Positions 8,641-54,892 of a DNA stretch of 64,000 bases are shown in pieces (position 1 is the stretch's first letter; each line of letters begins with the position of its first letter). Source of the stretch: Owenia fusiformis. Taxonomy: Eukaryota > Annelida > Polychaeta > Sabellida > Oweniidae. A model generated the notes under the pieces. The model did not search any database and was not told the DNA's origin. It saw nothing but the letters and a program-made list of their open reading frames with translations. Both the position numbers and the translations under genes were made by a program. The stretch is taken from NCBI GenBank assembly GCA_903813345.2, contig CAIIXF020000010.1, positions 16,937,181 to 17,001,180 on the forward strand, written 5' to 3'.

Positions 8641-9292
8641 CATGTGTTAGGATGTTAGTTAAAGTAGGGGCTTAATGTGGTCTTAAAAAGCTCCAACGTT
8701 CCTCTTAGGGTGGTTAGTCACAATTTTTTCTCTAAAACTCAATTGTATTGTTGTAGCCAGAATGTTTCGGGTCAAGAGACCAACTACGAAAGAAAGTTAT
8801 CAAAAGGATTAATGCAAATGCCTTTTATATGAACAAAATGTCAACTACATGCACGGGAGAGTTTCCTGCCCCTGCGATCTTATTTGTCCATTTAGAATAA
8901 GATAAACCATGTAACCAGGAGGTCCATGTATTCCGTTCTGACAGAATTTCAGATTCAATTTCAAATTAAGTTTATTATGTTCGAAATCCCGAATGTCCTC
9001 GGGAGAATCTCTTTTCGAAATTATAATGTCAGATAGATACAAAATAATATTGATATAACTGAATACACTTAATTTGGCTCCAGTTTTAATTAGACGGATT
9101 GACGGAGTCAGAAAATCCGCCAAATTAAAATCCGCCAAATTTCAGTTTGGAATTTTTGTCAAATGCACTTTAGAAATTAATCTTCTGGGGCCCCCTTTCC
9201 TGTCAACTGAGCATGTCATCAACATGTCATACATTATCCCAAAAGAAATACAGAAAATATCTTAGTAAATACCCGTCCTAATGACATAAACC

Positions 9293-9756
9293 ATGGGCTT
9301 TCAAGAGAATCTTTTGATAGCCCATGCATAAACATGACAAAAATTAAACGTCAGTCCTGATTCCGCCAAATTAAATAGCCACCAATATTTGAAATTGAGC
9401 AAATTCGTCAAATTAAGTAGCGTCAAAATAAGTGTATCTAAAGTATCTGTAAGGGGGGGGGGCTCAAGGCATAAAGATTACCGAGAGATACAAATCGGAG
9501 AAATAGATGAGATGATGAATATGTATTGTATGTTTTCCAGTTGAATTATGTTATTTGTTATTGGTCCTAATATGATTAGGGACCACCAATATGTATGTGA
9601 CAGTTTTGAAGTTCAAAAACGGGTAAAATTGGTTAAAGTAAATTGTATATGATAATCAGAGCCGGGATTCAGAGATACACAACTAAAATAACGAGGAATT
9701 AAAAATAGCCTATAGACCATGTAGACTGCAATCGTGGACTCCCTTGAAAGCCCATG
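9293..9756 (+). repeat. Hairpin-ended element, ATGGGCT family
   Basis: An interrupted hairpin at 9293-9325 has outer stem ATGGGCT/AGCCCAT and inner TCAAGAG/CTTTTGA. The arm is echoed as GAAAGCCCATG at 9746-9756. The same architecture, with the same stem family, is seen at 49901-49930 and 54240-54892. The interior contains a G run at 9452-9461 and no reading frame of note. Confidence 0.5.
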
Positions 9757-10311
9757 CTATAATCAAGTTAATCTTGGGATATCCCGTCTTTGAAGAAGCA
9801 AAAACGCAATCAAACAGTTAATTAGTTATTGTGCGATCTAGATTACAGATCAAAGAAATCAATTTCAAGATCATTATTACTATGTATTTAGTTCGTTGTA
9901 TTTTTGAAAAGGGGTACAAGAAAACTATGTATTAATATATCAAGGGCAGGGTGCTACTGAATCTGATAGTTAAAGCTGGGAAAATGCTCTCCCCCATTTT
10001 GCAAATATTGTGTGATGCCAATGAACCCTGAAATTTGTTTTTGTTTTCGCGAGCAATCAACAAATATGTTTATGAAAATCTTGCGAGTCCAGACATATGA
10101 TTCTCATTCTGTCTCAGCTTAGTGTTGATTAGATTTTATCCCCACTCTTCCGACGTCTGTGTCTCCCTCATTTTTACCCTATATTCAGTTTCTTTTTAAA
10201 CCAAATTTACAAATATCCGTTCATATATATAAATCAGTAGCTGTTTATGACAAGATTATGTTTATAGATTATCAAAAATTAAGGAAGCGTATTTTGTAAT
10301 TTCAACTATAT
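9757..10311. other. Intergenic, nothing recognised
   Basis: AT-rich; no coding or structural signal was seen. Confidence 0.4.
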
Positions 10312-12711: not shown

Positions 12712-15700
12712 ATAGCGAGGAACATCTCTGCTGTTTACTTGCTTCTCTCCATTCTGAAAATGTACGACGTCAGGTGACCAACAAGGACACGTCACTCAAT
12801 GACCTTGAACTTGTATACAACTCTCTGCTAATGAGCAAAGGTAAGTCTAGCATTTCCTCACATATAGGCCTTTTTTATGTCCCCACCACATAGTGTGGGG
12901 CCATATTGTCGGCCTAGGCGCGTCCGTCCGTCCGTCCGTCTGTCTGTCCGTCCGTCCGTACGTCGGGCAGTTTTCTCCAAAACCGCTACCAATATCACAT
13001 TCAAATTTTCAGGGATAACTTATGAGTGCATACAGATGTGGACGAAAAAGTTTCAACTCGATACCTACTTCCTGTCGGCCATTTTGAAGTCAAATGCTAA
13101 AATCCTTGTCTGCAAACTTTAAGAAAAATGGCTTCACTGTTGTTTTTAAAACTTTAACATCCTGTTCAGCTCACTTGATTCTAGATCTGATTAGGTTTTG
13201 GACCTGTTAGCCCAGTCATGGCAGCCATTTTGAATGTCTTAAGAAAAGTTAGCGTGCGATAATACTTTGTATCATATTGAATGGTGTTTTTGAGTTTTCA
13301 TACTTAGACTATTTAGTAGCTTTATAAATAATTTCAGGTGTACTTTATTGTTAAAGCCTATGTTATTGTTAACAGTAGTTATATGTGCTAATTTTGTAAA
13401 AAGAAATCAGCAAAAACTTATAATCACTTTTTTATTGTCGGCCATTTTGGATTTTTCAATCTTTAAATCTTGTCTGTAAAGTCTTGTCTATGCGTTTTCA
13501 GGCGAACCGTTTGGTAGATCATTTTCAAATTTTCAGGGATGATTCTTAGTATGAAAATGTAGATCTGATTAGTTTTTGGCATTCTGGGTAAATGTCAAGG
13601 CAGCCATTTTGGATTTTCTGTCCTAAAATCTTGTCTGTGAAGTCTTGTCTACGCGTTTTCAGGCGAACCGTTTTGTAGATCATTTTCAAATTTTCAGGGA
13701 TGATTCTTAGTATGAAAATCTAGATCTGATTAGTTTTTTGGCATTCTGGGTAAATGTCAAGGCAGCCATTTTTGATTTTCCGTCTTAAAATCTTGTCTCT
13801 AAAGACTTGTCTATGCATTTCCAGGTGAAGCATTTGGTAGATCAATTTCAAATTTTCAGGGATGATTCTTAGAATGAAAATCTAGATCTTATAAGTTTTT
13901 TGGCATTCTGGGTAAATGTCAATAAGCCATTTTGGATTTTCCGACCTAAAATCTTGTCAGTAAAGTCTTGTCTATGCGTTTTCAGGTGAACCATTTGGTA
14001 GATCAATTTCAAATTTTCAGGGATGATTCTTATATGAAAATCTAGATCTGATTAGTTTTTTGGCATTCTGGGTAAATGTCAAGGCAGCCATTTTGGATTT
14101 TCCATCCTAAAATCTTGTCTGTAAAGTCTTGTCTTCGCGTTTTCAGGTGAACTGTTTGGTAGATCAATTTCAAATTTTTAGGGATGATTCTTAGTATGAA
14201 AATCTAGATCTGATTAGTTTTTTGGCATTCTGGGTAAATGTCAAGGCAGCCATTTTGGATTTTCCATCCTAAAATCTTGCCTGTAAAGTCTTGTCTACGT
14301 GTTTTCAGGTGAACTGTTTGGTAGATCAATTTCAAATATTCAGGGATGATTCTTAGTATGAAAATCTAGAACTGATTAGTTTTTAGGCATTCTGAGCAAA
14401 TGTCAAGGCAGCCATTTTGGATTTTTCTGTCCTAAAATCTTGTTTGTAAAGTATTGTTTACGCGTTTTCTGGTTTACTGTTTGACGGATCAATTTCAAAT
14501 TTTCAGGGATGGTTCTTAGTATGAAAATCTACAGCTGACTAATTTTTTGGGCATTCTTGGTAAATTTTAAGGTGGCCATTTTGCATTTTCCCTTTCAAAA
14601 TTGTAACAGTAGTCTTGTCTACTCATTTCCAGGATAACCATTAGACGGGATCACCCATTGGTGGGGACATATTGTACACATTTGTGTTCTTGTATTTGCA
14701 TTATTTTACATTATAGGGGTGTCTAGTGGCAGTATGTGTAGATTAAAAGTTGCATATTTGGTGGTTGGTTATGCCATTGAAGATCAGTCTCAGATCAGTC
14801 ATAAAATGTGAATTCAGTTTTGCCTGGATCTGACTTAAGATGGGGTCTTATGGAATAGACCATAAGAACAAGGAGTAGAATGGGGACTAACCATTTTACC
14901 CTTTTCCTGAGAAATTTTCCTTTTTTCCTTCCCCTCCTTCCTACAGTACATAAGACCAGATTTTATGGATTCCATCCTTTTATGTATCAAGTACACCATC
15001 ACAAACTCCCTTTATTGCCTGATATCAGACCTAAACCTATTTTGCCCAAATCCAATTTTTATGTCACCACCAAAAAGTGGTGACATATTGTTATGGTCTC
15101 CGTTTATTTCAATTGTGCTTACATATTTGTGCTGATATATTTGAAGAAAACATTTCATACTTTATTTAGTTGAGGCTGCCATATGGACAAGTGAGAGTAA
15201 CACAGACCTCCAGGGCCTGCACCAATGGTCAGTAAGACATCATGTGGCTTCATTACTCACGCAGGGAAAGTTCACAGAGGCAAATGAGTTCTTAAGTCAG
15301 GCAAGTGGCTGAGTCAAAGAGCAAAAGTAATTATGTTCTGGGGAAAGGGTAGTTTAAAGGGAGGATTGTGTTACACTAATTCCATTTTACTGTCATAAGC
15401 TGAGATGAGATGAGATGATGATTAAGATGAAAAAGGAGAGGGTACAATTCTAAATTCTGAAGAAGAAAACTGTTTTGATCTGTCTTCCAAAACTTCTGAT
15501 TTGTTTTTAGCAGTTTATACCTATGGGTATCTAATGCATAAATGTAACACTAGATGATTATACTACATGAATAAATCAAAAAATAGATATTATGCATACA
15601 ATTTTCATTTTTATAATTGCATGGAAAGAATTTTGACAGAATTTGTTACTGCTACCTAATTGATATTTTTTAAAATATAATTGCAGGCAAAGGAGATCTA

Positions 15701-27400: not shown

Positions 27401-30400
27401 TAGTCCCCTTGAATGATATCCCTGTAAATTCTACTTTCATTCTGAATTGCATCATTAACACTCTTTGAGCCAGCATCACCGAGGAGAAATATATGGCGTA
27501 AAGAGAATCCATTCATTCTTGTAATAATTCCCCATGTTTTACGTATTATTTCCCTATGTTTTAGATGACTTGGGGCTGTCTTGATGATTACCAAGAGATC
27601 CGTTTTCATGTCGCACACCATGTGTTCGTTAATGAGGAATTCATCATCGCGTTGATTTGTGACTTGATGTGGTAAATTTTGTGTATGAATTTTTAGTGTT
27701 AGCGGTTTCCTCTGCTGAATGGTAACATCTTTGACTGTCAATGTAGTATCATTTTTTGTGTTCGTAAGAATTCCATTTGGTTCGATTGTTGTTTGTTCTT
27801 TGTACAAACTCTCATTTTTCATTTCAAACATTGCTTTATGCACTTCATTCATATGTTCTCTTGTGCTAAAAGCAGTAGGTGTCAACATACTTTCACTTCG
27901 TTTTTCCATCTTTTGTTTTTTGTATGTAGTAAAGTTCTCTTTCAAAGACATCGCATAAATCTGACTCTCATTTGGTTTCATAGTCATTTTTTGTTTGTTT
28001 GTGTTGACATTTTTTACTGAGAGGTAAAACAAATTCTCAGATTCCTGAATGATCAATTTAGTCTTTTCATTGTCAAAAACGTAGATTGAATTTAAGAGAA
28101 ATATAATCAAACTAATCCAACATATTCCAAGGAATGATTTGTTTTGTTTTGTTAGAAACATTTTTTCCTTTAGACTGGATGTGGTCTTAATTGCTTCTAT
28201 TTCTCTGGCTTCCGTTTCTTTATCTTCTCCTTTGGCGCTCGTTCTCATATATTTGACTTGTCAAAGTGCCAAGTGTGAACTTAAAGTCCCCATATAAAGT
28301 TTAAACCACTTTGGCTTATATTGTAGCCTTACCTAATGTTATCAAAATGTGATATGTGAAACTTTTTTGAATTTCAAAAATTGTTTTTGAAGGACTTTTT
28401 CTTCTAAAAATCATGAATTTATTTTAGAGGTCACACATATCTTTTAATAAGAAATAATTCATTTATTCTAATGTGTTTTTTGCCGATAATGGGTTCATAA
28501 ATAAGCGACAAATTAACTCAGCAACGTTTGAAAGTGGTTCAGAGAAAAATGCATTTCAAAATTGAGTTCTCATATCATTTAAAACAAAATATATTCTTCC
28601 TTTTAACCTGGTTAGACAATCAACATTGGTTTATTTTAGAAGTTTAGCATATTTAGAAAGGATTGACATTGATAATTTCTTTAAATCTTTTTCCAAAAGT
28701 TTTTTACCATCTGAGTGATGCCACTGTGTCATTTAGGTTGCAAAATATTTTTAATGTGTTAAACATTTAAGTGGCACAGAAGATATGACATTTAATTATT
28801 GAAATAGGGTGTCCTTTGTTCAATCTTTTCATTAGTGTTAAAAGATAATGTGTTTTGCACTGTATAATGGAATATCTGATGATTGAAAATTGAAAATTTC
28901 ATTTGAATAATGGCGGGAAATTTAAATATTTGAGAAATAAAAAGCTGCCAACTAATTTTTCAAAAATCTTAAGAATGATAAGAACATATTTTTAAAATTT
29001 ACATAGGGCCTTTAAATAAAACATAATATACCCCCACATACATTGCATTGGTGAAAGCATCGGTGAAAGTATACTGTAAAACATCAAGCTCTTCTTACTT
29101 ATAATTATTTTTCCAACATCTTGATATTATCGAGTGACTTTCTATCCTTGAATGGATGTTGTCCAGCAGTTCCAGAATCAGGACATCATGAAAAATGTTT
29201 TTTTTGATTGAGGGTTTTATTTAATTGCTAAAAAAGCCTTCCTAGTAATGACATTATAGATATCTAATCTAATCTATAACCTCAAAACAGCGGAAATCTT
29301 TTTTTGAACTGGAAAAACAGCAACTCCATGGAGTAGCAAATCCCACCGAAATTTTTTTTTTGATTACTAGAGGCCATCTTGAAAATTCCTTCTTGAGCAG
29401 AGCTTGTTTGTCCCTAGGCATCAACATATAACATGTAAACCATATCCGTCAATTAGCATTTGAGTTATCAAAGATTACATTCCTTTTTTTATGAAATATA
29501 GCAGCCATTTTGAAATCCAGCCCCCATTTTAGAAATCTTTCTCGAACAGAGCTACTGTGTTCCTAGGCATCAATATATAAAATTTGAACCAAATCTGTTC
29601 ACTGCTATTTGAGTTATTAACGATTACATTTTTACGAAAAATGGCGGCAATTTTAAAATTCAGTCATTGAAAATTCTTTGTGGAACAGAGGTACTGTGTC
29701 TCTAGGCATCATCATATAAAAGATCCAAATCCGTTCACTTGTATTTGAGTTATCAAAAATTACATTTTAATGAAAAATGGCGGCCATTTTGAAATTCAGT
29801 CGCCATCTTGAAAATTCTTTCTTGAACAAATCAACTTTGTGCCAAGGCATCATCATATAAAATTTGAACCAAATCTGTTCTCTAGTATTTGGGTTATCAA
29901 ATATTACAGTTTTTACGAAAAATGGCTGCTGTTTTGATATTTAGCAGTCATTTTGAAAATCTCTTCTTCAGTGTAGCTCCTTTGTTCCTAGGCATCTGTC
30001 TATAAAATTTGAACCAAATTCGTGAACTAGTATTTGAGTTATCAAAAATCACATTTTTTTATGAAAAATTATGGCCATTTTGAATTGAGGGGCCATATTC
30101 AAAATTCCTTCTCGAGCAGAGGTCCTACACCCATAAGCTTATAAAATTTGAATCAAATCTGTCGACCGGTATTTGAGTTATCGCCCAGACAAACGATGGA
30201 CAAATGCACGGATGGACAAACGCACACATTTTTCATTCAGTTGGATAATAACAACAACATCTTCATATAATTATTTGGTTGGAAAATCCTTTACAGTTTA
30301 CATTATTTTTATTTCACACAACAACACTATTTTATTTAAAAAATACTAAAATAAACTATCATGTTTTCTTGACAGTTTTCAGTCATATATCTTGAATGAG

Positions 30401-33400
30401 TACTTACTTAAGCGCACCTAATTTGTGCTTAACTATAATGTCGTTATGGTTCTCAGAATACCTACTAATAACAGTTCATGAATAATGAGGAAGTAATATC
30501 TAAAATCTAAGTAAGACGTTTATGTTATGTCATTGGTTTAAATTTTATGTATGCTAAGTGTTTTCTTAACACCTACACGCAAACTAAACAGCAGTAAAAA
30601 TGTGCATTTTTCAAATCCTGTGTTATTTTAACTAAATTAGTACCGTGGGTACTGGGCTCACATGGTCACATTTTTTGCTGATTTTTTGTTACAAAATTAT
30701 TTCAAGCCATCTGTCTCTCAGTCAATTAAAATGGCTGAAAAAAAAACGGATATAATTTTTTGCCAATAATTTGTAACAAAATTATTTCATACAACTACTC
30801 TTTACAGTGACATGGCTTTTTGCAATGCAAGACACCTGAAATTATTTGTAAAGCTAGGAAATGGGCCAAAATTGAATTTCGCGAGACAAAAATGGCGACC
30901 ATTTTGAAATCAGGCAAGCTTTTGAACCAGGAGTCATAGGGGAGTTTTTTGTATTGATGTTGAACAAAAATAACTTGAAACTGGAATCCTATCGACAGAG
31001 GTTTTAAGGCAAATGGTCCAAAAGAGGATTTTGCGAGACAGATGGACAAATGAATGTTAACTAAAATGGCTGAAAATAAAAAAACGGATATAATTTTTCG
31101 CTGATTTTTCGTAACAAAATTATTTCATACATCTACTCTTTACATTGACATGGATTTGTAAAAAAAATTATTTCAAGCCATCTGTCTCTCAGTCAATTAA
31201 AATGGCTGAAAAAAAAACGGATATAATTTTTTGCCAATAATTTGTAACAAAATTATTTCATACAACTACCTTTTACAGTGACATGGCTTTTTACAATGCA
31301 GGACAGCTGAAATTATTTGTAAAGCTAGGAAATGGGCAAAAAGTGAATTTCGCGAAACAAGAATGGCAACCATTTTGAAAATAGGCGAGCTTTTGAACCA
31401 AGAGTCATAGGAGAGTTTTTTGTATTGATGTTGAACAAAATTAACTTAAAATGGGAATCCTATCGACAGAGGGTTTAAGGTAAATGGTCCAAAAGTGGAT
31501 TTTGTGAGACAGATGGACAAATCGATGTTGACTAAAATGGCTGAAAATAAATAAATGGATATAATTTTTCGCTGATTTTTCGTAACAAAATTATTTCATA
31601 CATCTACTCTTTACATTGACATGGATTTGTACAATGTAGGACACTTGAAATTATTTGTAAAGCTAGGAAATGGGTCAAAAGTGAATTTCGCGAGACAAAA
31701 ATGGCGACCATTTTGAAAATAGGCGAGCTCTTGAACCTGGAGTCATAGGGGAGTTTTCTGAATTGATGTTGAACAGAAATAACTTAAAACAGGAATCCTA
31801 TCGACAGAAATTTTAAAACGTGCCACAGAAAGTGGATTTCGCGAGTCAGATAGACAAATCAATGTTAACTAAAATGGCTGAAAATAAAAAAATGGATACA
31901 ATTTTTCGCTGATTTTTTGTAACAAAATTATTTCATATATCTACCCTTTACATTGACATGGATTTTTACAATGTAGGACACCTGAAATTATTTGTAAAGC
32001 TAGGAAATGGGTCAAAAGTGAATTTCGCGAAACAAAAGTGACGGCCATTTTGAAAATAACCGATCTTTTGAACCAAGAGTCATAGGAGAGTTTTTTGTAT
32101 TGATGTTGAACAAAAATAACTTAAAATGGGAATCCTATAGACAGAGGGTTTAAGGTAAATGGTCCAAAAGTGAATTTTGCGAGACAGATGGACAAATTAA
32201 TGTTAACTAAAATGGCTGAAAATAAATAAATGGATATAATTTTTCGCTGATTTTTCGTAACAAAATTATTTCATACATCTACTCTTTACTTTGCAATAGA
32301 TTTCTACAATGTAGGACACTTGAAATTATTTGTAAAGCTAGGAAATGGGTCAAAAGTGAATTTCGCGAGACAAAAATGGCGGCCATTTTGAAAATAGGCG
32401 AGCTTTTGAACCAGGAGTCATAGGGGAGTTTTCTGAATTCATGTTGAACAGAAATAACTTAAAACAGGAATCCTATCGACAGAGGTTTTAAAACGTGCCA
32501 CTGTTATTGACAGAAAGTGGATTTCGCGAGTCAGATAGACAAATCAATGTTAACTAAAATGGGTGGAAAATAAAAAAATGGATACAATTTTTCGCTGATT
32601 TTTTGTAACAAAATTATTTCATATATCTAATCTTTACATTGACATGGATTTTTACAATGTAGGACACCTGAAATTATTTGTAAAGCTAGGAAATGAGCCA
32701 AAAGTGAATTTCGCGAGACTAAAGTGACGGCCATTTTGAAAATAGGCGAGCTTTTGAACCAGGAGTCATAGGGGGGTTTTCTGTATTGATGTTGAACAGA
32801 AATAACTTAAAACAGGAATCCAATCGACAGAGGTTAGCTAGGTAATGGGCTAAAAGTGAATTTCGCGAGACAAAAGTGACGGCCATTTTGAAAATAGGCG
32901 AGCTTTTGAACCAGGAGTCATAGGGGGGTTTTCTGTATTGATGTTGAACAGAAATAACTTAAAACAGGAATCCTATCGACAGAGGTTTTAAAACGTGCCA
33001 CTATTGTTGACGGACAGACAGACGGACAGACGGACGGACAAGTGAGTGATTGCAAAAGCTCACCATGTGAGCTAATAATAATAAAAAGCACAAAATTTGA
33101 AGTATAAGAATTAGATCAATCGTATCAATTCTTCCTATATGTTCCAGAAAATCCCTAAAAAAGTTCCAAGGGTTCTGAGACACTCTGTACCAGATGTAAA
33201 GAAATTATGGAAACTTTAATAATTTATACCTTGACAATGACCTCTTTGGGGGCCACTCTCTCTATGTGTTGATTGACATCATCACCCTTCAGTTGGATGA
33301 CATATTCACAATAAGGCTGCAGACCCCTTATTCTATAACTACCATCCTGCTCTGTTTTACCTAAAACATGCATAATAATTATATCAATCTCAGTGTTTTG

Positions 33401-36400
33401 ACCTAAGGGTATTTTCAGTCTGATGGTATTGTCAATATTAAGGTATTTTTTGATTTGAGGTTATTTTCAATTTTAAATCGGAGGGTATTTACAATAAACT
33501 AATCATAACTGAACTTTCTCCAATCAGTCTGTACAATTCTTTCAATCTCAAGGAAATTCAAACTAGCCAACATGTTGTTTTTCACTACAGTTAATAATTT
33601 AATATGATCTGTCTTGTTTCTCTTGATATATCACATTTATCTCAAAAAAGCAATATCTTAAAATCCTTGTCATGAAATAATGTCAACATGTTCTCCTATG
33701 TGACAGCCTTCTTACCCTCTTCTTGTAGGTCACTGCAGTTGTTCTTGCCCACTGACTCTATGATAACAACTTGTTCAGGTTCTCCATTCAGTGATGACAC
33801 TGTACCATACACACTGAAATATGTAGCATTTTCATGGGTTTGTTTGGGAAATTTCTTACATCAAATGGCAACCATCTTGTTTTTCCCCCTTCAAATTACA
33901 CTGGCGGGAAATTCAACAATTTGAATTTCTTTTTAATTCTTCATTGGTCTAATAAGTTATTTCTTCTTTGTATGTCATACATGTTGCCATTGATGGTTTT
34001 TTCTATGATTAATGACTATTTTCTTTTTGTTAAGATACTTATTCTGACTCTCAGCAGGGGGTTAATTATGCATCAAAACTCGTGAAAAAGTAAATATACT
34101 TATCAAATATAACTAGGACAGTAATAAAAACCATATTTCGCATACATTTGACTGAGGGACCAAAAGGGCATATACCCGGACACATCCTTTGTTTCTATAA
34201 GTTTGAACAGAAGATTCGGTGTAATGTAAATATGCATCATTGAATCAGATGTAATTTTAAAATATGACCTACCTGTAAGCAACCCTGCTGCCAATAATAT
34301 CTATATTGACAGTGCTGCCCTCTAGGACATTAATCATCTGTGAGGCAGGAGTGAATTTGTACTCCTTCATCATTGGTCGCAGGAAATACTCTCCTGGGCT
34401 CTAAAAATGAAGTTCAAAAATGAATTTTAGATTCTCTCATATAACATGTATATACAGTGAAACCCGTAAAGGGGAACACCTTTAGTAGAAGTGGAAGACT
34501 TCAGAGTATCAAGACCAACTGACTTATTGTTAAATGAACCTCTGCTAGTGGAACACTTTTAAGAGGTACCAAAAAGAAAGAAATTTATATTTTGAGTTTT
34601 TTATGTATTTGTTATCTGGGACACCAATACGACATAACATTGACAATGTATTTCCATGTATATGTACTTCAAAATCTCTCTCCCATGACTCCTATAACTA
34701 CAGAACAATTATAATGTAATCTCACCAGGTTTCCAAAGGTCATAGTTCCATTAGTGTGGCTGAGGTTGTTGCTTCTGTAGGCTGATCCCCCACTCAGAGA
34801 CAGCAAGACACCTCCCAGTGGAGTACCCACTGTGTCAGATACCTACACAGGGCGTAATGAATATTTTATTAGCATCATATTAGCTTATTTTAAAGAATCA
34901 TGTCAAACAGATAAAATATAAAACATGTTCCCTAATTTTATGTGTTCCTACACCCCATCCCACAAACATAACCAATCACTACATGTGCAAAATGCAATTT
35001 AAAAGTCTTCTATAAATCTTACCTTAGCTAAGACTTGCCCAAGTTTGAAAGCCTTGAAGAAACCCTTTCTCCCCTCAATAGGTGTCAGCACATAGCCTTC
35101 TTTTTCAGCATTCACACTGTAATCTTGGTCACCATGTAAGGGGCCCACTCTGGAAAATACGATTTTGGAATTACATGTACAGAAATATAAAAATACAGAG
35201 GGATGGAGATAAACTGTATTCAATGCATGCCTCTAGTGGCAGAGGCATAGAAATGGGGATAACATTTTACCTGTATTTTCCCTTGGCGTCAGATATGACC
35301 TTGAGAGGGTCTGTGCCAGCATCAGATGATATGGAAACGTGGACACCCTGAAGTGAGGGCTGGATTTCACCCTCTATAAACACACCCTTTTTGCCTTGAA
35401 ATCTTACAGGCTCCACAGGACAGCCATCTATAAAACATTAAGGCAGAATTTAGGAATTATACAAAGAGACAGTATGGAGGAATTTTACTACACAAAGAGA
35501 CAGTATGGAGGAATTTTATTACACATAGAGACAGTATGGAGGTGTATTCTCAGCATACCCAGCTTTGTGAAATTATCAATATACATTTACAGTAAAAGTG
35601 TGTAAGAGGAACACCTTTCGTACCTCTAAAGTGTTCCATTTACAGAGGTTCATCTAATATCAAGTCATTTAAGCAAAGGACCCTGAATTGTTCCTCTTTA
35701 CCCTACTATCACACCAAACTAGTTCTCACTACGTTCTCAAAAACGGGCTTCAACTGTGTACGAACGGACTGGACCTACTAAGAACCGTTTGGGATCTATT
35801 AACAAACTCCATCGAACGTACTCGAACGGGTAGGTCCTCTAGAACTTAGACAATGCTCAAAATGTTCTCGTGGTCGTCACGTTCTACAATTAGAACGAGT
35901 GACAACGTACTAACGACGAGCTGGACGTACTACGAACGGAACCGCCGTACTTCAATCCTACTAGGGACGTTTTAACAACGAGTTGAATTGTCTGAGGACG
36001 TGTTGAGAACGAGGTAGAACTAATTTCAAACGGGTTTAAACTGATTGAGAACGTATTTAACACTGCTTATGAACGAGTTAGCAAAAATATAGCTATCACA
36101 CCAAACAAGTTGCCACTGCGTTCTTCAAAACTGTGTGCGAACGGAATGAACGTAGCTGCAACTTTCTAAGGTCTATTTACGAACTTTATGATCGTTCTCA
36201 GGCGGGAATGTGATTTTAGAATTTTGAATCGATTCAAAATTCGATGGCGACCATAACGTTCTGTAATCAGGTCATGTTGACCTTCTAGACTAAGGGACGC
36301 GTTCTACTACGTTGTACACCGACGTGGTGCGACCTGAACGAACTGCGAACGAGAAGGACGTATTGAAGACTGTTTAAGAACGAAGAAGCTAATTATTTCA

Positions 36401-39400
36401 GACATATTTCCCGACCACAGCCAGATTGAGCCCGTTTCACGACGTTTTCGTAGGACTGGCAAGAACGGGTAAGAACGAGTTTGGTGTGATAGGGGGGTTA
36501 CAGGCTTTACTTTATGTTTGATGTCTCATCCTTTTATTCAAAGCCAATGTCACTCTGTAAGTTGTTATTTAGACTCACCTTCAACTGTTACAAGTTGTTG
36601 GGCTGGATAGAATAACACCACACCAGAGCTTGGTTTCATCCCTAGCTGTTCACCAGTCCTGAAAGCGTCATTTATATAAAAATATATTAAGATTATTTCT
36701 GTTGAAATTGATCAGTATTTGATCTCAACAGCATTAGAGCAACTAGGTTCTGCTCCCTGTTAAATATGCAACAAAGGTGTACATACTTAGCCATGTGAGA
36801 AAATTTGTAGGAAAAGGGCCCCTTGGGTGGTGCTTGTTTCTTTTCATCCTTGTTCTGAGTGGGAGGCGGAACACCATCTGCTTCAAGGGGTCCTAATACA
36901 ACTTCAGTGTTGTCACCTGCAGATCTGTAAAAATAAATTATTCCTTGTAGCTTTTAAGTACAGATGTATGTACTTTTTCACACAACATGTTCCAAACTTA
37001 AGAAAAATTAGAAAACCTGGTTTTATCTTATTTACTCAGCAAATCATATTTACCTGTGGGGGTCAATTAAAAGACATTATTTAAATGTACCATTAATTTG
37101 TGGAATCAAAGAGACTGTTAACAGTCTAATAGAATTTGAAAATGAAATAAAATGGATCAAAATCAACCTACGTTATAGTTACTTTGATGTCATTCTGTAG
37201 TTCATTTGTAGTAACAACTCCAGATACCAGGTGGCGCACTGCGGTCAGAGACAACACTTTGGGGGCAGACCTAAAACAATTTTGGAAAATTAGTAAATGA
37301 ATCGCTCAGAAGTTTAATCAGATTGAAGTATAATATATAAAACTGGCACCGAAAGCTCTAAATGTTAACATAAATAGAATATAACAGAACATAGGAGAAG
37401 TTGAAAAAGGCTTACGTGTCATATTTGAAGATCTCCTGCTGGAACTGGTGGCAAGAGACAGGGCTGAGACTGTAAAGACCAGGCTTGGCCAGACAGAACC
37501 TGTTGACACCCTTAGATACACTGAATGAACCAACATTCCCTGGTTTCCCTTCCTGGGCAAAGTTCTGCAAACATATTTTAAATTTAAAATTTATTGAAAT
37601 TTTAAAATGCAAAAAGTAAATTCAAGGTAATGTCTCCAGTGAATTTCAGAATTCCCCCAATCAGAATATACAGTAAAAGGTGTATTATTTATATCCGAAT
37701 AACTCTCTAATCTGAACCAAAAATGGACCAAAATTTGTTACTTCCCATTGACTTACATGTTAATAAAACCTTGAAATGTGAACAACTGCTAATTCGAAAG
37801 CTTTTGGCTGGTCCCAATTTAGACAAGTTTTACTTCATATTGATAATGAGATACAGTTCCATTGCTGAAAAGTTCTGCATTGTATTGCATTAAATGGAAA
37901 TTGTAAACCCCAAATGTTTTGAGGCTTTGACCCTGGTACAATTCCAATAACTTACCAGTGTTATTTCATGAGATAATGTAACAGAGAGTATATATCCTGT
38001 GTGTTCAAACTGGAGATCAGTTATGTCTTTATCCTGAACATCAAAGTCAATGCTTCTTTCCTTCCAACACCATTCATCCTGAGAAACACTCGCTGCAATA
38101 ACATGTTCAATATTTTTAAGTACAACAAGATGTTACAACTACACTTTAACATTATGACTTTTAGACAGACAATCATATTACTTTTTCAGAAAATGCTTAG
38201 GATTTTTAAAATAGGTTTCGAAAGATGTATATTTCATTGAATAATGCTAGATTAGAAAAATTCAACATTTAAAGATGTATTCCCTGTTCTAACTAGATTT
38301 TCAGGGTTGTGAGTTTTTTCGAGATCTTTAAAATGATACATGAAATGTTTAGTATTTACATACTAATCTAAGCCAGCAGGTAAATGCTAACCTGCTGTAA
38401 TCAAAAATCAATACACGTTCAATACATGATGTATGTTCAAGAGATTCACATACCTCTATATTTGCCAGGCATTATGTCTGTGTATGTAAATGTGCCAGAT
38501 GATGTCACTTGTGCCACTTTACGCTCGTCTGTTCGTCCAACTGCAGCCAAGATCACTTGCATCTTTCCACATGATTCTAAAACCACAGATGGATAATTAT
38601 TACTTTATAATTTCAAGTTGTTCTTCAAGCTCACCCACGATGAACAAGAACTATCAGTTATTAGGAGGCCCTTCCAGGGGGCCTCCTATAGTTTTTGTAG
38701 TTATTCTTCTTCTTCTTCTTATTCTTTTTAGCACTTTTTCTCCTACTTCTAGCTAGGTCTGAATGAACTCTTATATGCTCCTACGAGGGACATGAGCTGG
38801 ACTTGTCGGGAAATTAGTTCATATCTAGGTCAAGGTCAAAGGTCAAAATCTAGGTCAAATCTAAGCTTTTTTAAGTTTCTCAGATTTCGTCCTCATACTT
38901 CATTATTTCTTGCGATGAATTAAAATGTAACTAGATATAAGCATTCTCTACAAATTGCTCACTATATGTACGCGTTAATTTTTTACCGTTTTTGAGATAT
39001 TTGACGTCAAAAATCGTCAAAAATCGGTCATTTTTCAACTTGCTTCAAATGAACCAGATTTTTTTTAAAAATCATCTACAAGATCTCAGGAACTCAAATA
39101 TGTCCTTACTTTTGACCTCCGACCTTCGGTGACCTTCGAAAGATAAAAAAAGTTGTTTTTTCAAATTGATTTTCTGGATTCAAATTTAGGTATATTTGAT
39201 CACAAAGGACCCACTGAGGTCTAAAAAAATAAAATTTGCAAGGTCAAAGGTCAAGGTCATCAAACTAAATCACAAACTGTGTTTTCTAAGTTTCTCAAAA
39301 TTGGAGACTACAAATCAATATTTTTTCATGAAAGTCAGGATATATATTCCTCTATAGGTTCTACACATATTAGCAATTGACTATTTATTAAAATTGTGTA

Positions 39401-42400
39401 CCAGTTTTGAGATATTGGAACTCAAAAACTGAAAAAAGGTCAAATTTCGAAACTTTTCAAGACTAAATTTCAACTTGCTTCAAATTGACCAATTTTTTTT
39501 TTAAACTCATCTACACGTTCTCAGGATTCCAAATCTAACTTTACTTTTGACCTTTGACCTTTGGTTGACCTTCAGTGACCTCCGAAAGGTCAAAAAACTT
39601 GATTTTTCAAATCGATTTTATGGATTCAAATTTAGGTATATTTATTCACAAAAGACCTTCTGAGGTCTAAAAAAGTAAAATTTGCAAGGTCAAAGGTCAA
39701 GGTCATCAAACGAAATCACAAACTGTGTTTTCTAAGTTTCTCAAAATTGGAGACTACAAATCAATATTTTTAAATGAAAGTCAGAATATATATTCCTCTA
39801 CTAAAGGTTCTACACATATTAGCAATTGATTATCTTTTAAAATTTGGCTCCAGTTTTGAGATATTATAGCTCAAAAACTGAAAAAGGTCAAATTTCAAAA
39901 TTTTTTAAGATCAAATTTCAACTTGCATTAATTCCACCAAACCTTTTTTAAAAATCATCTACAAGTTGTCTGGAGTTCATATATGACCTTGTATTAGAGA
40001 TTTGACCTTTGGCTGGCCTTTGAATGTTCAGAAACGAATATAGGGCCTCCGTAAGATTGCTTGCAATCTTAGATCGTTAGATCTCTAGTTATTTTTCATT
40101 GTCATATTCCTTACTCTCTGATTGGTCTATGTCCTACATGTGACTCAGGAAATATAAAGCAACATTCCCTGGCTGTGAGTTAGTCAAGTGTAATCTGAAT
40201 CATATACCCAAGCTGGCATTTCGTCGTGTATACCTTTCTATATATCATCTTAATAATTGATATCTTTATGACTGCATTCAATATTTTAGATAAGTCATTC
40301 TCTTATTTTCCTCATTTCTCATGAATCCTGCAGATTTCACATGAAATTGGCATTTTTCTTTTGGAGCCACAAAGTTCACTTATTTAACTAGCAAAGAAGA
40401 TCTTTCAAAACTGAAAGGAGTAAATATTGAAGCTCAATTCACGATTCTTTCAATTTGAACATGTAATACGTTGATGCCTCACCTAAGCATGCCACTTTGC
40501 CAGTAACTTTGGCTTGGAACTGTGAAAAGAGAATCCCATCTACAGAAGCATCTGTGACTGTCACTTGTTTATCAAATGGGGCTAGTTTCAAACCAGCTCT
40601 GATTTCTTTGGCACTCAATACAGGCTGGAAAAAATAATAAGACATGAAATTGTATAGTCCACCCGTGTAGCTCAGCGGTAGCGCAGGTACCTCTTACGCA
40701 ATAGGTCCCGGATTCGATCCCCGGTTCAGGCAAGACTAAAGGATGAGTCTGGGAATGAGTCTGGGTATCAACTTAGAAAGTATTGAAAATTGTAATGTCT
40801 GAAAAACCAACTCAATCACACATATTATTAAACTTCAATATCTTATCCTTCTTCTGAGATTACAAAAATATCAATTTGTATCACAATTGATGAAGAATAT
40901 TGGCATCAAAGACAGTGCATATCACTTTGTCAGAATTGAAAAAATATCAATGGCAAATATTAAATGAATTATTTATGCAAAAAGTTTGAAACATATCTTC
41001 CAAAACATTGGTTACTTTCTTTGTATAGACATTGAATGGTATTTCTGGATAAGTGAATTGGTGTTTATCTGGGTAATCAAGGGATTATAGTCACTCAAAG
41101 TTACTGAGCATCCAGTTTTGAGACTTCAATTGTGTTGGTGATGTTACACATATTTCAGTCAAATTCATGCTGAGCACAACATTTTGGTTTCAATTTTATA
41201 ATCTCTATACATGATCCTGGTGATGAAGAGTCAGAATCAGTCAAAAGACCTAAACCGTAAAACTGTGCACAGTGTGAAAACTAAAAGTGAAGCAACCTTT
41301 TTTCTGATATTTCTTACATCAATTGGCAACCATCTTGTTTTTCCCCCTTCAAATTAAACTGGCGGGAAATTCAAAAATTTGAAAAAAATTTTAATCCTTA
41401 AATATATTTCAAAAATATGATTTTATTTTTAATTCTTCATGGGTCTTAAGTTATTTCTTCTTTGTATGTCATACATGTTGCCATTGGTGTTTTTTTCTAT
41501 GATAATGACTATTTTTTGTTTTGTTAAGATATTTATTCTGACTCTCAGCTGGGGGTTAATTATGCATCAAAACTCGTGATAAAGTAAATATACTTATCAA
41601 ATATAACTAGGACAGTAATAAAAACCATATTTCACATACATTTGACTGAGGGACCAAAAGGGCATATACCCGGACACATCCTTTGCTTGTTTGCGTAAAG
41701 TACTTCAGGGTGTTTGACTGAGTGGTCCGCAACTCGTACAAAAGGCTGTGGTGTGTACTTGTATGTCTATGTATAAGTGCACATAAAAGAACACAGGGCT
41801 CCTTCAAGGAGGGGTTTCTGGGTCTATCTTCCATGTTAATTACGTAAATTACGACCGTATATATACGGGACATACCCAAGAGGTATTGCTCACCTTCATT
41901 GGTGGTAAACAAAATACAATACAAAAGTGCTCAATAAACGATGTAAGTAAATTATAGAATGGCTTGATGAAGCACTTAATTCAAAATGTAAGAGAATTAC
42001 ATTGAAACATTTGACTCTGTTAATTTATCCTTAATGAAATGTCACTAATGAATTTTAATCTTCTAATAATATTCTATAACTACTATCATTTTATACACAT
42101 CATTATTACAAGTGAACAGAATAGAGGGCGTTTCACTTTATTTAGCCCTTTGCTGATATCTACTAAGATATGCATGTAAGAATATCTTACCTTCAGAGAA
42201 TATACTCCTGGTTTAACTTTAGTACAGAATTGACCTTTAGCATCTGAGGACAAGGTGACGGTTTGTTGACCTTTCGACTCCAAGGTCACTTGCCTTGTGG
42301 TATCAAGTTGGTCTAAGCTGTCAGGTACTCTATCTATCACAATCTTACCACAGACACTGAACCTAGAAATCAGGATTTCAAGATATGAGGGCTGAGGGGA

Positions 42401-45400
42401 TTTAAGATGATAGGATTTAATAGGAGCCCCGAAAACAGGAGGTTTTAAGGTACACTCACACAATGAAAATTTTTATGATTATAAATACCACTAATTAATC
42501 ATCTGGTTAATATTTCCCACCTTTTAATTGGATATTTACACATTATGTTAGAATAGATTAAGCTTTCAAATTAAAATATTTTGATAAAATAGTACATTTC
42601 TCATTTTTCAAACTTATTTTGTGAAAGAGTAGAATTTTTACATGCCTATGTGGCAAATCTTGATATTTTCCCTGAGCTTTTTCCTATACAGAGAAGTGAT
42701 AAAGGATTCTCACAGAGGTTTAAAATAAAATTAAAAGTATGTTGTGATAATAAGAATCCCATTCGAAAATTCTGTCGCTCAAAATGATAATCTAAATTTC
42801 ATTAAAAATCTCCTATTTGCAACATATTAAATTCACACATCAATCGAATTGCTTTACAAAAAACTAATTTTAGTTTATTTGAAACATAGGAACAAATTCT
42901 ACACTAAGGGCTGATGTGAAAAAGTCACCCCACCTCGGTGGGAATTGAACCCATAACCTCCCGATTAGATCTTGAATGCTATACTATTCAATGACTTTGA
43001 TTTAAACTCACTTGGTTGCTATGAGGGGTGGTAGCTGTGGTGTATTGGGGGTCACCTTCACTTCCATAGCTTCAAACTCCAGTCTGTCTGCCTTGGCTGT
43101 AAGACTGTATGTGCCAGTCTTCATGTTATCAAGATGGTAGAAGCCCCCTTGTTTAGTTATAGCTAGTTCCTTATTGTTGAGTAATATCTTAGCACCATCT
43201 ATACCAGCCCCCTAGAACCAAAAAGTATGAGTAACTAAGTAAGAAGTTGAAAATACCAGAAAACTGCAAGGAGAATGGCTGATATTCGTGATTTTGTATT
43301 TTGAATACACGACAGGACTTCGCGATACCCATATATGGAAAGAATATCAAGTGGCGTCCTTGGGAGCCTATCCTCCTTGAATATGAGCCTAGCTAGCTAT
43401 GAGGCATGCAACTCACCAAAACTAGAGACATCTTTAGGACTATGCAAATCATGCCATTTTGTAGAAATTGAACGCAAATATCATTATATTGTTCTAGATC
43501 ATCTTTGCAATGCTCTCGGTCAGTATTGTTATATTGAACTAGATCTTACCTTAGCAGAGACCTTGACTTGTCCACTAACAGAAAAACCAGCGACTTGGAA
43601 AGATTTCTGGAAGATAAATTCATTATTTAATTAAAGTTACATTAACTATACATGTAAATATATCTTTAGATAACCGAACACTTGAGTACAGTACAGTATA
43701 CAATTGTTGACCTCTCCAAAGGTCAACCGGCAAAATTGTATACCGAGACTGTAAACCGAGAAACTACTGTTGACAGAGACCGAAGGTCGAGGTCAACAGT
43801 AGTTTCAAGGTTTACAGTCGAGGTATATGATTTTGACGGTTGACCGAATGGAGAGGTCTACAATTGTTTTGTTAGTCAGAAGAAACTAATAATACACATA
43901 TAGACGACAGTCATCAATCATGGCTTCATTTCACAATCTTCTCCCTGAACCCCGCCAGCAATAATCTTTTAAGAAAATCTGAAGACAGTTGAAGCTAAAC
44001 TCTCTGTTTTCGGCACATAACTGCGTACTCATTAGTAAACTTTCAATGTTAATTTTGCGTTTCTATTTGTATTTTTGCTATACTCGTCGTGTAGAAAAGT
44101 ATCACTTTCATCAACGTTTACAAAATGTCCGTCTACCATGTTTTTTTCTGTCAGCATTGTGACGTCATATTTCCCATAATTCACAAGTGTAGTACAGTAA
44201 CATACGCGGTCAATAATATGATATCCCATGATGCACAAGTGAGGTACAGGCAAAAATGTTGACCGCTAATAGACCAATCAGATGCGAGTATTTACAGTGA
44301 GGTACTAACAATAAAACCTGTATACAGTAAAACCTGCGAACAGGGAATGCTCTTGGGACTGGAGGAAAGTTTCCTTGTCCAGAGGTTTTCCCTATAGAGA
44401 GGGGCCGCACTTTCAGCAAACTCAAACTTGCCGAATAAGCATATTTGTATATATATGGGCATGTAAGAACTGAATTTCAAGTTTCATCAACCCCATTTCA
44501 TATCATTGATAATCTAGAAGTTTGGATCAATAAACGATTTAAAGAGATTTGGCTCAACATGACACATGTACTTATCTGTTATCTCCATAAAACAATTGTG
44601 TCAGTCCCTAGATTATCACAACTGATTAGATGTAGTTAGGTTTGTTGAAAGGAAGAATTAGTGTCATGATAATCAGTAATGAACAGACTAGTATTAGTTT
44701 TAAAATATATCAGGGTAATTAACAATGGGTGGGATGCTACATCCTGTGAACAATTGGCTTATCTTAATCTCATTCATATTAATCCAAGCTTTTTAGAATC
44801 AGATATTGGATTAAGACTTTCACACCTCTAAAAAACAATGGAATATACAGTGTCACCAATATTCCAAATTCCTTGTTCACAGGTGAATTTTCATAATTTG
44901 CCCCAAAATAGTGTTCCTTGTTCCCTGTTCACAGGTTTTCCCTACAGAGAGGGTCCGTTAACATGTAAGTCAATGGAAAAATATTTGGTTCTTTTGAAAA
45001 CCATTCCTTGTTCATAGGTTTTCCCTACAGAGAGGTATTCCCTCGGGCAGGTTTTACTGTATCTAAACACCTCTCAATGTTACTGTTCCATTTTTTTTAT
45101 CTAATCTGCCATAAACATTTGTTTTAAAAAATGTGAAATGTGAACACCTGTCAATCCAAACACTTTTAACTCCGCTTTCAGATTATACAGGTTTTATTGT
45201 ATTTGTATAGTTGTTATATCTATATGTCAGGTTTTACTGTATTTGTATAGTTGTTATATCTACATGTATTGAAGAAATGTCATGTTACCCATTGTATAAA
45301 GCATTTGTACCTCTGGTTTAGTTATTTTCTACTTATTTTGAAAAATCACAAATCTTAATATTTCTTCAAGGGACTTTCAGCATAGATATATCTGACCTAG

Positions 45401-48400: not shown

Positions 48401-51400
48401 TGCACTGAAGGATACACTTGACAAAATTAGGTGAGCACTTGTTTTCTATTGCTCTATAGTGCAGAAACAAACTCTTCGCTGAAAATGGGCAATCTTATTA
48501 GACGATCAATTACTTGAGAATAGTAATGTGTCTTCCCATAAAAGTAAAAACTGTAATGTAGGCCACTTGATACAAACGTAAATAACATACGTGTACCTCA
48601 ATAAAATCTATACTTTTTTGATTTTTTATGTAGTCCAATCCCCAACCATAACAATGAAAGAATAATTTCATTAAGATTGATCTTTTCAATTAATTTTTTA
48701 ATTCCTCAATTTAATCATACATCCAAGCTCTGTAGCAATGATTTGTGGACTAAATACAGGAATGACACTTGAAACTTGTCAAAGTCATTAGGGGTGGGGT
48801 AGTATGTATCCAACAGACCAAATATAATATTCGGTCTGAATTTATTCAGACAAAGAATACAGTCTAAGGGGTGGGGAGCCTCGCCTAGAGTCCATTACAC
48901 TGGTTTATTGCATCAGTAGAATCCCAAAAATAAGAAACCGAGAGACCATTGTGCAATAATATATGGAAAAGTATATTCATATTGTACATGAATGACATAT
49001 TTCAGATTTTTTAGTATTTTGTGCAATAAGCCTGTGCCCTCTTGTAATTTGAAGAATTTCAGCCATGTTAATCTTTAATATTGAAAATAACATACTGTAG
49101 CACAGACGCATCCAAATATAAGAGGCCACACACTTTATAAGCCAAACTAGAAGCAACCCAAGATAAACAAATGTCATTCATGTACAATAGGAATATATTT
49201 TTCCATATATTATTGCATAATGGTACTTTGATTTCTTATTTTTTAGGTTTTACTGACGCAATTAAACAGTGGACTTAACACTGTATGAAGCCTTGGAGAC
49301 ACTCATTTTTCTAAATATGATTTACGTGGTATATTTTTCTGCTGTTTAAGAGACTTTGGGATACTTATGTTAATTCAAGAAAATATGACACTTATCAATT
49401 ATTTTTGCTGTTTGGTCCCACTTTCTAGCCTAGAGCTACATAAAAAAAGAATCCTATTCACCTTTCCACAAAGTAAAGAAAATCGATAATTTCCGGCGCG
49501 CTGATTGGCTGTATGCAAATGAGTCAAATCAATGACGTCCAATGGTAGAAAGTTTTGAAGAATTAGTACAGCCAGCATAGGAATATTTTGAATAAACTAC
49601 AATAAAAAGGATTCTATTTGCCAAATGCACAAATTATTTTTAATCAAATAAGAAATATGGACGGGGCACTTTGATTCCGAACCTTATGTAGTTTAAATTA
49701 ATCATTTTTTGACAGAACTATTGTTTATTAAGACTTCTGAGATCAGCTTCACATACCCGGGCTCACATATCTCGTGCGATTGTAAACAAAAAATGTAAAT
49801 TGTGAAGTTACAAACAGCTCGGTTTAATTATCTGATAGTGGTCATACAATTAACAAAATATTTTCAAAAGCATGCATGAATATGTTCCGGTAACTAAAAC
49901 CATGGGCTTTCAAGATCATGAAAGCCCATGACTAAACTAACTTTTTTTTCATTGGAACTTTTTCCAGTTGCAATTTCAGTAAAACGTAGAACGGGTTTCT
50001 CGCTAAACGCAACTGGGCCTCATTAAAAAACCTTCATTCTATCCTCCAAACTTGGAGAACGCCCATTGGCTATTAAAAAGATAACTTCGAAGCCAAATTT
50101 TCTATCCAAGAAGCTAGACTTAAACCATTACTTTATTATTTACCAAATGAAATTTGTTCATAGTACATATACGATATCGTTACCTTTTGGTGTTAATTCG
50201 CCATCAGCGATGTCAATAACGATCAGCAATGTCAACATATCATCAATAAATATTATAGATATACGCTCTTTCTTTGAAATCTTTCCGGTGATCATTATTC
50301 AAAACCGATCATCACATAACTAATTTATCGTATGACAAGTGAGGTTTCACAAGTGAAGTTTTCAGGACACCCTGCATATTCAGGTTTGTTTTCTAAGCGT
50401 TCTCATTATTTTCGAGAAATCCATCATCATTTTGGCTAAGAAAAATTCTACAGTCTGCTGGATCTATTTTGACAGTTTTGCTTTAGCAAGATATTCTAAC
50501 AAATTGACTGTTTCTACACTGAATAAAAAACATTTTCCTGGGAATATTTGGATCGGGAGATACGCAGCGGGAAATATACATTGGAATATATAAATTCTAT
50601 ATTCCGATGTTTTCATGTATAATATTTTCAAGATACGATCTTATATATGACTTGCAGAAATAGATAGGAAGTAATCGTGATTAGTTAATTGAATTATGGG
50701 AGTAGTGAAGTCAATGATTAAATGAATAAGAGCAAATGTTTTTAATTTGAACAGGTCATTCATCAAATGACACTGAAGATTAACTTAAAATAGATTGTCT
50801 ATCTATATATTTTTATGCATCAGAGACATGTTATAATGTTGGTGAACCAATGATTATGATAATTTCACCTGTTCACATGCCATAGCCGTAGGCAACGGGG
50901 GTTCGGTGGGTTCGAACGAACCCCCGGTCAGGATTTTCCAAAATATCATTTTGCGGAAAAATGCCTCAACCAGAAACATTAAATTACTGTGCTATTTGAA
51001 AACTACATATATGAGCAGTAAATGAATTGATATTTGTTATGGTGAACACGAGAGGCTTATTTTGTTAAAAACATGTCATCATGAAGTTACACTTCCCTCA
51101 AAACGTTTGGCAAACTTAGGCATGGGATGAGATTAAATTGTCGGAAGACCCCAGAGCATGAGATTTTACATTAAGAAATAACAATAATTTCGCACAATTA
51201 ACTTAAAAGCTGATTCTTCTCGGACAAAATAACCCATCTTGGGCAATGGCTAAATCAGTCCTTTGTAGGATTTTTTAAGCCAGTTCTGGTCCAATAAAAA
51301 GTTATTGAAAGTTATTGTAAACAATGCAGACATCCCATACTCCGAATGATTTTTACAACATTGACGAATAAATATCTGGAATCGTCGTAATATTGATAAA

Positions 51401-54239: not shown

Positions 54240-54892
54240 ATCATGGGCTTTTAGAGAAAGCCCATGATATAATACAACTGCTTACAACAACAGCCCCAGC
54301 TATGGTATACATGCACATTGTAGGATGAAGGTAAAAGGATGTATCATGGGCGTAGGGCTATATTTTGAGTTGGTACGCACACCCGGGGATGCCTGATCGG
54401 AGGGGGGGGGTCCGGGGGTATTGTTCCCCCGGGATTTTTTTTCAAGGACGTTATTTGATGGAATCTAAGCGTTTTTACCAACATTTTTTTTCAAATTCAT
54501 TTGGTACGCCTTTGCGTATTTTGCGTAATAGGCGCTACGCCCATGTGTATCATCCTCCGATCACAGGGCTTCAAAATCCAGAATATCTTCTTTCTTTTTA
54601 CCCCCTGCTATAACCAAGTTGGACGCGCCCGATTGAAACTGAATCACGTGATCTTATTATGCGCCGATGACGTATACATGATATCTGTCGCAGTGTTGCG
54701 ACAGCCAATCAAATTGGGAGTTCTTAATCGGGGAAATGCTAACTGCTTATAGCAGGGGGAAGAAGGAGGTACGGATTCTAGACACCTGCTTAGGAGGATG
54801 ATGTGTATAGCTATCCAGGCTTTACAAAAACGTTAAAAAACGACTTTTGAGGATTACCATCAATTTGATCCCTTTTCTGTTGAAAGCCCATG
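54240..54892 (+). mobile_element. Hairpin-ended element, CATGGGCTTT family, with nested MITE
   Basis: The left end is a perfect 12-bp hairpin (ATCATGGGCTTT 54240-54251, AAAGCCCATGAT 54257-54268). The arm is echoed as GAAAGCCCATG at 54882-54892. Inside, ATGGGCGTAG (54346-54355) and CTACGCCCAT (54535-54544) bound a 199-bp inverted-repeat insert containing G and C runs. Confidence 0.65.

Follow-up and report, generated by a model that had tools for sequence, protein, structure and literature searches.

The defining mark of Helitron2 transposons is a 5′ repeat from which the 5′ hairpin is built, with a matching 3′ copy lying just before a 3′ hairpin (Bao & Jurka 2013, PMC3627910). The repeat, termed ATIR, is 8-15 bp long, and compensatory mutations are reported in two Culex elements; pairing between the 5′ and 3′ copies was suggested to destroy the 5′ hairpin and thus to set the endpoint of replication. 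Helitron1, according to the same paper, has neither a 5′ hairpin nor inverted repeats. Comparable ends have been described as the palindromic subTIRs of HINEs in the mite and of Helentrons in Culex (Thomas et al. 2014, PMC4067079), and in the Helitron2-like FoHeli1 and FoHeli2 of Fusarium, which carry a hairpin at each end and in which the bases of the 5′ hairpin recur inverted near the 3′ end (PMC5148889). The latter source also gives the targets, Helitron1 inserting between A and T and Helentrons in TT. In the Pacific oyster, HINEs are non-autonomous Helentrons with the order subTIR, complementary inverted repeat, microsatellite, tandem repeats, 3′ subTIR and palindrome (PMC7492417). Their subTIR is usually 11-12 bp, and most HINE types have perfect subTIRs in only a minority of flank pairs, so strict identity between arm and echo is not always kept.

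Here we describe an element of ~1.4 kb that very probably belongs to the Helitron2 branch of rolling-circle transposons as a non-autonomous Helentron (HINE). It lies in a window of 64,000 nucleotides, the whole stretch of DNA that was analysed, and adds one more example to a kind already known, since its hairpin and echo match the end structures described for Helitron2 and Helentrons.

Results

The window is animal DNA, judging by its genes: it holds six reading frames of at least 120 aa, and three of the five that were scanned against Pfam matched, to a galactosyltransferase, a NOMO domain and ankyrin repeats. None of these five matched a Rep/helicase. The parts of the element, together with a related left end at the edge of the window (element B), are as follows.

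38658..38661, plus strand: likely 5′ terminal bases, TTAT (putative terminus)
38662..38688, plus strand: 5′ hairpin with the 5′ ATIR/subTIR GGAGGCCCT (38664-38672) and its local complement at 38679-38688 (exact counts, hairpin scan, complementarity search)
38704..38718, plus strand: (TTC)5 microsatellite of the left module (from the sequence)
38998..40020, plus strand: central repeats, ~2.3 units of ~446 bp
40042..40050, plus strand: 3′ ATIR/subTIR, the echo, AGGGCCTCC (exact counts, complementarity search)
40052..40071, plus strand: 3′ palindrome/hairpin with a 9-bp stem, TAAGATTGC-TT-GCAATCTTA (hairpin scan)
40085..40096, plus strand: likely 3′ terminus region, CTAGTTATTTTT (spacings published for Helentrons in PMC4067079)
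521..719, minus strand: element B, a related left end, with a hairpin at 719-692 followed by a similar left module at 694-521; it leaves the window at base 1

Ends of the element

The hairpin scan of the window gave a 10-bp stem at 38662-38688, TAGGAGGCCC-TTCCAGG-GGGCCTCCTA, containing the repeat 38664-38672 as in Helitron2 and Helentrons; a preliminary description of this DNA had recognised the hairpin and made it shorter than it is. By exact count in the window, the arm GGAGGCCC (38664-38671) occurs once on the plus strand and its reverse complement GGGCCTCC twice, as the 3′ arm of the same hairpin (38679) and as the echo at 40043-40050, which confirms the placement of both in that description. 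A complementarity search between the ends extended the match to 9 bp (40042-40050 with 38664-38672), that is, one base past the stem and into the loop. The second hairpin, at 40052-40071, does follow right after the echo as had been proposed, with a gap of 1 base, and the 3′ ATIR/subTIR thus stands directly ahead of it, again as in Helitron2 and Helentrons. The 5′ arm pairs with its own 3′ arm or with the echo at similar computed DNA pairing energies (-14.0 vs -13.6 kcal/mol), which speaks for the HINE reading.

The CTAG noted earlier past the second hairpin is present at 40085-40088, so the element end first given, 40086, falls inside this motif. The element likely starts near 38658 and ends somewhere in 40085-40096, positions that suit the Helentron spacings of PMC4067079. 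AGTTATT is present at both ends of the element and the junction is therefore ambiguous. The putative first bases, TTATTAG (38658-38664), are common to element B (723-717, minus strand), which is weak evidence because TTATTAG occurs five times on the plus and eight times on the minus strand of the window.

Between the end modules lie two features that are frequent in HINEs, the (TTC)5 microsatellite at 38704-38718 and the ~446-bp repeats. The repeat units share 84% identity over 554 columns, falling to 63-77% in the outermost stretches, and contain GGTCAAAGGTCA-type motifs; they are absent from the arrays listed by Tandem Repeats Finder. Other repeats of the window include satellite-like tandem arrays at 13441-14591 (~162-bp units), 29379-30115 (145-280 bp) and 30693-32987 (152-471 bp), two copies of a 280-bp segment that are 94% identical to each other (33912-34191 and 41408-41685), and two fold-back repeats that match their own reverse complement, at 48898-49271 (74%) and 43700-43867 (82%).

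A related left end with a different stem

The left module of element B (694-521, minus strand) is identical to that of the first element in 125 of 181 alignment columns (E 6e-20), and its hairpin (719-692, minus strand) reads TAGACTCCAGAT-GGAA-ATCTGGAGTCTA. When the two stems were compared pair by pair, a single comparison of two elements concerning the arm and its local complement, all ten positions paired in both, four of them unchanged and six changed on both sides. As these six of ten pairs are doubly changed and still pair, the hairpin has been kept while its letters change. Element B thus keeps a hairpin in the same place beside a similar left module, a further point for the HINE reading. 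Within the 719 visible bases, the search for an echo of the B stem gave two candidates of 6 bases only, and these were not counted because the right end of B is probably outside the window. The low expectation (0.02) computed for a search motif of the left end is not independent evidence, because this motif was built from both of the left ends that it later matched.

Chance expectation and other candidates

An echo alone is common, as 334 of 682 simulated windows had a stem of at least 9 with a 9-base echo inside 3 kb, and a looser version of the full pattern was seen not only in 18 of 40 simulations but also at further A/T-rich spots of the real window. Both counts favour an accidental 9-bp match linking a palindrome to an unrelated hairpin. 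The strict combination, with a stem of at least 9, an echo of 9, a second stem of at least 8 beginning no more than 4 bases away and a span below 3 kb (thresholds chosen after the element had been seen), was found in only 1 of 682 simulated single-strand windows, and in the real window once on the plus and not at all on the minus strand. The expected count of this 9-mer in the interior of the element is 0.0004 from base composition and 0.0006 from dinucleotides. Chance is also opposed by the different, fully paired stem in the same place of element B, and by an order of parts that matches a known element type (oyster HINEs, PMC7492417); this reading is very unlikely. Window-wide, 15 inverted 14-base pairs were found, compared with none in 28 and one in each of 2 of 30 simulations, and they were not counted for the element because every repeat in the window contributes to them.

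The same geometry was also looked for at six other tandem arrays (starts 10308, 13441, 24741, 26123, 29379 and 30693), with 1.5 kb added on each side. Seven matches, all at the arrays 29379 and 30693 and in partly overlapping places, were rejected as A/T-rich or as a GGCGGCC-type palindrome inside the repeats. Elsewhere in the window, an unrelated set shows the same geometry and is possibly another HINE: CATGGGCTTTCAAG with an imperfect local complement at 9292-9326, a 14-base exact inverted copy ~450 bp downstream (9743-9756), and then a palindrome, GGGATATCCC, at 9776-9785. There are also two perfect 12-bp hairpins with a CATGGGCTTT arm, at 54240-54268 and 49901-49930; the former has a 10-base echo ~640 bp downstream, at 54880-54892, inside TTGAAAGCCCATG, and no echo was seen for the latter.

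Further copies were sought by pattern scans of two collections that are not of animal genomes. Four scans of viral_contigs returned 0, 0, 0 and 61 stretches and two of genome_contigs 0 and 10. Among the 71 matched stretches, the longest stem beside the motif was 6 bp, in one stretch, and blastn gave no match between these stretches and the element at E 1e-4; they are taken as chance matches, and no further copy was found in these non-animal collections.

Discussion

The order of parts equals the published HINE order (PMC7492417; also PMC4067079), and a double use of the 5′ repeat, as it would occur here, is described for Helitron2 (PMC3627910); both argue for the HINE reading. Against it, TC at 38654 and CTAG at 40085 formally permit the 5′-TC and CTRR-3′ termini of a canonical Helitron1, which would begin with TC (38654), finish with CTAG (40088) and sit between an A (38653) and a T (40089). 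These letters do exist in the sequence, an A followed by TC and a CTAG followed by T, as letters only and thus as putative termini, and the 3′ hairpin lies 13 bases upstream of CTAG, a point in favour of this reading. However, the window holds 157 copies of CTAG, element B lacks a TC at the corresponding position (the eight bases ahead of its hairpin are ATTTTTAT), and the 5′ hairpin and inverted repeats found here are the very features without which Helitron1 is described in PMC3627910. We therefore consider a Helitron1 very unlikely, and retain the non-autonomous Helentron.

Compared with Helitron2 (PMC3627910), the element has the same 5′ ATIR within a 5′ hairpin and 3′ ATIR immediately before a 3′ hairpin, the same kind of compensatory changes between related elements (here between arm and local complement, in two elements) and the same proposed pairing switch; it differs in its central repeats and in that no coding sequence was seen in it, the comparison being one of structure. 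With Cg_HINE of the Pacific oyster (PMC7492417) it shares the whole series from subTIR, inverted repeat, microsatellite and tandem repeats to 3′ subTIR and palindrome, again compared by structure, whereas its repeat unit is ~446 bp and its subTIR, at 9 bp, falls short of the usual 11-12 bp. This shorter subTIR counts against the HINE reading, yet it is inside the 8-15 bp of Helitron2. The mite and Culex Helentrons and HINEs (PMC4067079) likewise have subTIRs that are palindromic, and a stem loop at the 3′ end; there, the mite subTIRs are 12-15 bp and autonomous partners are known.

The switchable end thus already has a name and a proposed mechanism in the literature (PMC3627910). The preliminary description had held the geometry to be undescribed in Helitrons and Helentrons; this is refuted, as Helitron2 is defined by it (PMC3627910) and it is also reported for Helentrons and HINEs (PMC4067079, PMC7492417) and for Fusarium Helitron2-like elements (PMC5148889). 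Its suggestion that the geometry would suit a rolling-circle intermediate is sound. The same switch was proposed in 2013 as a replication-endpoint signal (PMC3627910). In the most likely mechanism, which follows the published proposals, the Rep/helicase of an autonomous partner would recognise and nick the 5′ end, aided by the 5′ hairpin, and would unwind the element and stop at the 3′ end; there, pairing of the 3′ repeat with the 5′ repeat would open the 5′ hairpin and mark the endpoint, and may perhaps also bring the ends together for joining.

A bolder proposal, which we regard as unlikely, is that recognition of the left end depends on hairpin shape and not on its letters, such that arm, local complement and echo could be replaced together while the left module is still recognisable. 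If true, this would let the matching of ends to one another change quickly within one family.

To conclude, the element itself is of little importance; it shows Helentron-type ends cleanly in an animal genome. With element B it forms a natural pair for asking whether Helitron2-type enzymes read the shape of the hairpin or its sequence, and whether pairing really switches as has been proposed.
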